The notes beneath the pieces were generated by a model that was given only the letters and a program-made list of their open reading frames with translations, ran no database searches and was not told where the DNA came from. Below, piece after piece: positions 31,058-32,094 of a stretch of DNA of 32,094 bases (its first letter is position 1; each line of letters begins with the position of its first letter). This stretch comes from Candidatus Omnitrophota bacterium. Lineage in GTDB: Bacteria > Omnitrophota > Gorgyraeia > Tantalellales > Tantalellaceae. A program made the translations under genes and the position numbers. The stretch lies in assembly GCA_014728075.1 (NCBI GenBank), contig WJMG01000043.1, positions 1 through 32,094 on the forward strand, written 5' to 3'.

Positions 31058-31142
31058 GAGCAATAGAACAGTGGAGCAATAGAGCAATAATAGATAGCGA
31101 CAATGTTCTATTGCGGTCCAATGCTCTATTGTTCCACTGTTC
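31058..31142. repeat. Head-to-head array of degenerate 8-nt units
   Basis: Units of form GARCARTR run in tandem: GAGCAATA, GAACAGTG, GAGCAATA, GAGCAATA (31058-31089). After a short core, related units run in the opposite orientation: CAATGCTC, TATTGTTC, CACTGTTC (31119-31142). The outer 21 bases on each side (31066-31086 and 31122-31142) are inverted copies with one G-U-compatible difference, so the array can fold into a long hairpin. No open frame uses it. Confidence 0.7.
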
Positions 31143-31310: not shown

Positions 31311-31763
31311 ATGAAAAAAAACGCTAAAGTCTCGAATAAGCAGGCTTTTCGGGACTTTCAGATAGAAGAGACATACGAGGCCGGCATAGAGCTCAAGGGC
31401 AGCGAGGTAAAGTCCATAAGGGCAGGCCGGGCCAGCCTCAAAGGCGCTTTCGCGAGGGTTGACAACGGTGAGGTTTTTCTTTATAACATGCATATCACCC
31501 CTTACGAGTTCGCGAACGAGGATATAGATCCCGTAAGGGTGAGGAAACTACTTCTGCACCACTCGCAGATACACCAGGCTGAAGTAAAGATCAGCCAGAA
31601 GGGTTACGCGCTCGTTCCCCTCAGGATCTATTTCAGGAGGGGCTACGCCAAGGTGGAACTGGGGATAGGAAAAGGAAAGAAGCTTTACGATAAAAGGCAC
31701 GACCTCAAGAAGAAGGAAGCCGACCGCGAGATGCAGCGGGCGATGAAACACAAAAACAAGTAA
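31311..31763 (+). CDS. smpB: SsrA-binding protein SmpB
   Basis: 150 residues from the ATG at 31311, the usual length for the family; the longer TTG-start frame in the track adds an unrelated N-terminus and would start upstream of the promoter. SmpB binds tmRNA and carries it to stalled ribosomes for trans-translation. Conserved segments are '[31 protein letters not shown]', '[14 protein letters not shown]', '[10 protein letters not shown]' and the basic tail '[22 protein letters not shown]', which enters the decoding centre. The start codon lacks a clear ribosome-binding site and the leader appears very short. The 5' end of the tmRNA gene lies 289 bases downstream. Confidence 0.96.
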
Positions 31764-31776
31764 CTTGTTCCTGTAT

Positions 31777-31798
31777 CAGGTTCAGGTATAGGTTGAGG
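31777..31798 (+). repeat. GGTATAG-type short repeat downstream of smpB
   Basis: CAGGTTCAGGTATAGGTTGAGG is the partner of the repeat at 31243-31271. Confidence 0.5.
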
Positions 31799-31901
31799 CG
31801 ACGGACCAGGGATCACATATTTATACTTTGGTTCTTTGAAAAAAACAACTGTAATTAGAAAGACAAAGGATCATGTAAGTTCCGGGTAGTAATACCTTAA
31901 A

Positions 31902-32046
31902 AGGAAGGTGAGCAGTCCGCCTAAGGCGGATGTTGAGAGGAAACCATGGGTTTCCTCTCAAAGAAATTCTGCTGTGGTTCCCAACAGCCCGAAGGGTGCG
32001 AAGGGGGCCGCAAACACCTTTAAGGCCGCCCGGAGCACAGAATTTC
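31902..32046 (+). ncRNA. Candidate structured RNA between smpB and ssrA
   Basis: The stretch has no open frame and dense pairing. TCCGCC-TAA-GGCGGA (31916-31930) is followed by TTGAGAGGAAACC-ATG-GGTTTCCTCTCAA (31933-31961, perfect 13 bp). Then AGAAATTCTG... at about 31962 can close with CAGAATTTC at about 32039-32047 around a C/G-rich interior (GGGGGCC / GGCCGCCC). It could be an independent small RNA, a 5' leader of the tmRNA transcript, or a palindromic repeat. It does not match SRP or RNase P RNA as I know them; a 6S-type RNA cannot be excluded. Confidence 0.35.
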
Positions 32047-32051
32047 CTAGA

Positions 32052-32094
32052 GGGGGTGACAGGCCTCGACGTGTTCTACGGGTCTTTGAGCAGC
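32052..32094 (+). ncRNA. ssrA: tmRNA, 5' end only (cut by window end)
   Basis: GGGGGTGACAGGCCTCGACGTG has the form of a tmRNA 5' end (GGGGG...GAC...TTCGAC): the acceptor strand followed by the D-loop-like CGAC. tmRNA rescues stalled ribosomes together with SmpB, whose gene lies just upstream. The tag-coding part and 3' end are outside the window. Confidence 0.75.

Follow-up and report, generated by a model that had tools for sequence, protein, structure and literature searches.

A palindromic repeat family at tRNA and tmRNA gene ends in a class of Omnitrophota, probably a non-autonomous mobile DNA element

Structured sequence between smpB and ssrA

The window, which is the whole stretch of 32,094 nucleotides analysed here from a Candidatus Omnitrophota bacterium, ends with its contig and holds 43 nt of ssrA at that end. 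Between smpB and ssrA (Table 1) lies a stretch that the earlier note had taken to be without coding potential, and only one chance open frame of 62 codons runs across it, in agreement with that description. The stems drawn there were real as well: the 13-bp and 6-bp hairpins were perfect, and the fold was far better than that of shuffled sequences on both strands (+ strand, 31902–32046: −63 kcal/mol, z −4.6, 0/200 shuffles as good; minus strand, 31903–32045: −62.6, z −5.6 versus shuffles). The 7-bp stem P1 closed a multi-branched domain. The stretch had been placed five bases before the presumed tmRNA 5' end; it does adjoin that end, but with a gap of 6 nt between the closing stem, whose last position is 32045, and the tmRNA start at 32052. 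No sigma-70-like promoter was found in 31700–32094.

A boxA-like motif resembling GTTCTTTGA just after the smpB stop codon recurred in several members of the bacterial family, and such a site after smpB suggests that the smpB-ssrA transcript may be antiterminated. Upstream of smpB, an imperfect inverted repeat (GAACAGTGGAGCAATAGAGCA / TGCTCTATTGTTCCACTGTTC) was present at 31067–31142 between tRNA-Leu and smpB, and palindromes similar to it preceded ssrA in two other genomes (G006 and G005).

Table 1. Features of the smpB-ssrA region of the window and helices of the repeat element
Feature	Position	Strand	Remarks
smpB	31311..31763	+	Pfam SmpB PF01668, E 1.7e-55
boxA-like GGTTCTTTGAAAA	31830..31843	+	found once in the window, between smpB and the element
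R1-family repeat, full, 143 nt	31903..32045	-	covariance-model match 153.9 bits, E 3.4e-41; copy among the model's training sequences
Tail, TGCTCACCTTCC on the minus strand	31903..31914	-	second partner of the h2 5' arm, with imperfect pairing
h3 hairpin, 6 perfect bp	31916..31930	-	31916-31921 with 31925-31930
h2 hairpin, 13 perfect bp, 3-nt loop	31933..31961	-	31933-31945 with 31949-31961; found again de novo
P1 stem, distal strand	31964..31970	-	T-rich tract next on the minus strand; terminator-like pattern there
P3 hairpin, 5 bp	31971..31988	-	31984-31988 with 31971-31975; 100% of cells paired
P2 arm	31996..32038	-	helices 32035-32038/31996-31999 and 32024-32027/32006-32009
P1 stem, proximal strand	32039..32045	-	7 bp with 31964-31970; end turned towards the RNA gene, with 6 nt to tmRNA G1
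ssrA (tmRNA) 5' end, cut by contig end	32052..32094	+	GGGGGTGACAGG.CTCGACG matches complete tmRNAs of family members

A repeat family with matches in one class

A repeat element had been one of the alternatives offered for this stretch, and the searches bore it out. Nearly all of the copies in the window's own genome that were first found by DNA similarity adjoined tRNA genes (tRNA-Val, tRNA-Cys and tRNA-His); the window element was 75–81% identical to these paralogues over the matched parts, and its minus strand corresponded to the tRNA-sense strand of most other copies. A relative of the same family had five further copies, after tRNA-Cys, Leu and Val. A covariance model (R1; 143 positions, 40 pairs) was built from eight copies. 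With it, six full copies were detected in the window's genome and dozens in related genomes: plain nucleotide search of the relatives reached few genomes, and the covariance model many more. R1 matched in 9/19 genomes of the bacterial family at a loose cut-off and, at E≤1e-3, in 55/292 genomes sampled from the class; in a phylum-wide sample, matches were limited to this class of Omnitrophota.

The element was undescribed as far as Rfam goes, as the earlier note had supposed. Among 4227 families, including T-box, RtT, 6S, SRP and RNase P, none reached its gathering threshold over the element; the families that reached threshold in the searched sequences were tRNA, tmRNA, RNase P and group I intron, all of them elsewhere. 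Clostridiales-2 RNA (RF02937) showed a weak + strand likeness at window positions 31861–31943 (AAGGAGGG..CAG, a hairpin, and GAGGGAAC), scoring 17.3 bits (E 0.13) against a gathering score of 58.6. No description of the element was found in the openly licensed literature searched, and none of the named genomes reached by SmpB search had an ssrA locus with the element.

Conserved pairing without a G-U excess

Read on the tRNA-sense strand, the element consisted of a spacer, P1, the P2 arm, P3, the P1 return strand, h2, h3 and a pyrimidine-rich tail; in the window's bacterial family, a T-run followed the P1 return strand. Standard pairs filled 96.5% of pair cells in the eight copies (slid controls, ≤54%), and both-sided changes that kept the pairing occurred in 20 of the 40 pairs (slid controls, ≤6). 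Such changes were present in 4/7 pairs of P1, in which 100% of cells were paired, in 5/8 pairs of P2, and in 4/7 model pairs of h3. When alignments from two other bacterial families (A6 and A7) were folded without a model, the closing stem, a long P2-like arm and h2 were obtained again; P3 and h3 were less regular in the copies from these families. The tail was more complementary to the h2 arm of its own copy than to the arms of other copies in three families (permutation P 0.0004, 0.003 and 0.04), values that are indicative only, because the copies are related. In some copies, a pseudoknot of the P3 loop with the tail was plausible by eye; it was rejected, since it was not conserved from copy to copy.

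If selection acted on one RNA strand, G-U pairs should be favoured, and equal numbers of G-U and A-C are expected if pairing is kept, or is decaying, at the level of DNA. Among 2220 paired-position cells of the element there were 21 G-U and 21 A-C, unlike the tRNA stems of the same loci, which had 79 G-U and 6 A-C. Alignment A5 had been fitted to the R1 model, whereas A6 and A7 had not, and these two together again showed no G-U excess (13 G-U, 22 A-C). This result argues that the pairing is kept in DNA and not in one RNA strand. The earlier note had named a lack of covariation in relatives, together with the lack of a transcript, as what would speak against a structured RNA; covariation proved very strong, but it looks like DNA-level pairing.

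Fixed polarity at tRNA and tmRNA gene ends

We placed 86 copies relative to tRNA and tmRNA genes. The P1 end lay within 12 nt of such a gene end in 49 of them and the distal end in none (0/86); in both genomes checked, the rough chance probability of the P1-end placement was below 1e-16. The 49 copies comprised 41 in sense at tRNA 3' ends, three in sense at the tmRNA 3' end, and antisense copies at the 5' ends of tRNA (three) and tmRNA (two). The window copy, which is antisense at a tmRNA 5' end, was left out of this count, since the contig stops within its tmRNA. Antisense copies before ssrA were also present at L051, from a different genus of the family, and at L105, from a different family. 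A further 10 copies followed CCA-like sequences of the tRNA 3'-end type for which no nearby gene was called, and one copy stood directly after the stop codon of a protein gene. The distance of P1 from tRNA 3' ends was nearly constant, at 4–10 nt, whether or not CCA was encoded, and the sequences at the foot of P1 were CTAAG, CTTTA, TGTAC or CTATAG. At one locus (L103, 5912–6156), a group I intron was found within a tRNA gene, with a copy of the element just past the tRNA 3' end.

Patchy occurrence, copy relationships and tandem heads

The comparison of smpB-ssrA gaps that had been proposed for relatives showed that, among the family ssrA loci seen, the 5' side was occupied only in the window and in G017, and the others consisted of smpB, often GTTCTTTGA (boxA-like), a short gap and ssrA. 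Occurrence at tRNA genes was also patchy. About 4 of the 43 tRNA genes of one genome (G000) carried the element, and two congeners, G084 and G059, differed at matching tRNA genes (Gly-ccc and Thr-tgt occupied in G084 only, Ser-tga in G059 only); both contained truncated copies.

Copies grouped by genome or subfamily and not by tRNA. For G000 and G016, identity was 81% within a genome versus 64% between genomes; identity was 61% between Cys copies of different genomes, versus 91% for the Cys and His copies within G000. The contrast was small for the G084/G059 pair (76 versus 73%), in which subfamilies crossed positions: the copy at Pro-cgg of G084 was 94% identical to that at Pro-ggg of G059, versus 79% for the two Pro-ggg copies. 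Gene conversion could be another source of the likeness of copies within a genome. A second head, partial or full, was arranged head-to-tail in 19/63 copies.

The h2-h3-tail part also occurred without P1–P3 behind plain terminator hairpins, at L050 (tRNA-Asp), L055 (tRNA-Gly), L255 (tRNA-Met) and L278 (3' side of ssrA). Within one genus, ssrA had a full element before its 5' end in G059 (L105/L279), and a terminator with the distal module after its 3' end in G084 (L278). At about 1500–1515 of L055, the reverse complement of the tail, GGAGGGGGTGACAG, resembled the tmRNA 5' end GGGGGTGACAGG, possibly by coincidence.

A second module type downstream of tRNA genes

At other loci downstream of tRNA genes (L026, L057, L060, L077, L080, L083, L085, L088, L090, L100, L107, L111, L123 and L133), a repeat of the tRNA 3' end, in many cases starting at C56 of the T-loop, lay 107–364 bp further on. 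Most of the inserts of this second module type contained a 7–10 nt complement to the T-arm of their own tRNA; over 18 inserts, the mean complement was 7.5, versus 6.0 for permuted tRNAs (0/20000 permutations). They often had a core resembling GCGAGCG..GCCGACC..GGAGGAAAAGGCC. Crossover in the T-loop by a tyrosine integrase would fit the duplicated 3' ends, and was set aside because the left half-site was unlike the T-stem.

Discussion

The stretch between smpB and ssrA is probably one copy of a family of non-autonomous mobile DNA repeats with specificity for tRNA and tmRNA gene ends. We propose that a copy is made up of palindromes (P1-P2-P3, h2, h3 and the pyrimidine-rich tail), is recognised in its folded or palindromic form, presumably as DNA, and is moved by an enzyme acting in trans. 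The P1 end would insert next to a tRNA or tmRNA gene end, usually just past the 3' end in sense and in fewer cases immediately outside the 5' end in antisense. In the window, insertion would have taken place between smpB and ssrA, downstream of the boxA-like site. The element, as a piece of the pre-tmRNA 5' leader, would then be read through passively on the + strand within the smpB-ssrA transcript, and RNase P would trim it off with that leader, as it would any other. Neither a constant target-site duplication nor a precise empty site was established for the copies. A Y1 transposase (PF01797) was present in 10/10 element-bearing genomes and in 8/10 genomes in which R1 was weak or not found; its presence in 18/20 genomes, with or without the element, was not discriminating as a sign of the mobilising enzyme. 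The Y1 genes lay several kb from detected copies or on other contigs. In G000, they were on contigs C66 and C3 and the element was on C30, C50, C54 and C63; in G084 and G143, the nearest detected copies were more than 10 kb from Y1 genes, and weak or truncated copies closer by could have been missed. Since the distal module was also found behind plain tRNA terminators, the mobile unit may be smaller than the full element.

The near-constant spacing of 4–10 nt from tRNA 3' ends and the mostly sense orientation would also be expected of a functional cis element, that is, a 3' trailer or terminator for termination or 3' processing of tRNA that was spread by gene conversion, and the orientation bias therefore counts against mobility. 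Strong covariation and the T-tract after P1/P3 in the window's family, with its terminator-like score, point the same way. However, few tRNA genes in G000 carry the element, sister species differ, some copies are antisense at 5' ends or follow a protein gene, the T-tract is missing from the copies of another bacterial family, and G-U is not favoured over A-C. We regard a trailer function as unlikely, and leave it appreciable weight because the distal module lies behind ordinary tRNA and tmRNA terminators, so that the proximal domain may be a terminator-like part in some lineages. Palindromes and tandems could instead have arisen, and been kept perfect, passively and without a transposase, through template switching at tRNA genes that are stalled and highly transcribed. 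Partial head-to-tail copies, near-perfect palindromes with G-U equal to A-C, and the inverted and direct copies of tRNA parts in the co-occurring module type would suit such an origin, which is nevertheless improbable, since an architecture common to several families and many unrelated tRNAs indicates the spread of one ancestral sequence and not independent generation.

The earlier note had also put forward an RNA, either separate or a leader cleaved during tmRNA maturation. The stretch does lie in the direction of the smpB-ssrA transcript, folds strongly, and precedes ssrA in three genomes of different genera (the window, L051 and L105). But in the majority of the family members seen, no element was detected before ssrA; most copies lie elsewhere, after tRNAs; the pairing lacks the preference for G-U that tRNA shows; and no promoter of the sigma-70 type was found in 31700–32094. 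A separate small RNA is very improbable, and so is a leader or regulator dedicated to tmRNA synthesis.

Among known systems, the mobile element proposed here invites comparison with REP/REPIN sequences, which are mobilised by RAYT (Y1) transposases (PMC3116915, PMC3733652). Like these, it is small, palindromic, non-coding, multi-copy, extragenic and probably mobilised in trans, and Y1 transposases are encoded in element-bearing genomes. It differs in its length and complexity (about 143 nt with five helices, against a REP of 20–40 bp or a REP doublet), in its few copies per genome, and in its fixed polarity to tRNA and tmRNA ends. REP/REPIN copies would be expected to flank their transposase gene, whereas the element was not beside the Y1 genes found, and the foot of P1 did not read as the REP tag GTAG or CGTC. 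A MITE would have terminal inverted repeats with a target-site duplication; in the element, P1 forms inverted arms around the proximal domain only.

Genomic islands also use tRNA and tmRNA genes, through tyrosine integrases (Islander, PMC4383910). They share this target with the element, but they are many kb long, whereas the element is 143 nt, non-coding, and has neither integrase nor cargo. Most of its copies do not seem to be bounded by a displaced tRNA fragment, and it also occupies 5' ends in antisense. Displaced tRNA 3' fragments were present at a subset of tRNAs, mostly bounding the second module type; the ssrA of the window is truncated. In the E. coli tyrT operon, the rtT repeats stand in tandem downstream of tRNA genes and measure 150–200 bp. 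At some related loci of the present class the tRNA 3' end is likewise repeated, but R1 uses many different tRNAs and the tmRNA across a class, and RtT gave no Rfam match to the element even at E≤10. An archaeal palindrome shares with R1 its fixed distance from tRNA 3' ends; it is about 20 bp long, occurs at about half of the tRNA genes and has been proposed as a processing signal, and neither a multi-helix structure nor tandem copies, both seen in R1, have been reported for it.

More tentatively, R1 and the module with a T-arm complement and a copied 3' end may be branches of one class-wide group of miniature elements that recognise tRNA and tmRNA gene termini by their folded form, which would make them an undescribed kind of structure-guided mobile element; we consider this wider reading possible but doubtful. 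For the study of such loci, our results are a caution that covariation before ssrA or after a tRNA need not mean a functional RNA, and the ratio of G-U to A-C, with tRNA as a control, helps to tell a functional RNA from pairing at the DNA level. Genes for tRNA and tmRNA are favourite landing sites of large bacterial islands. A tiny palindrome without genes that enters with fixed polarity at many tRNAs and at tmRNA would, if true, be a new use of this target, and the element would be a natural probe of what an enzyme recognises there, whether sequence, cloverleaf or acceptor stem.
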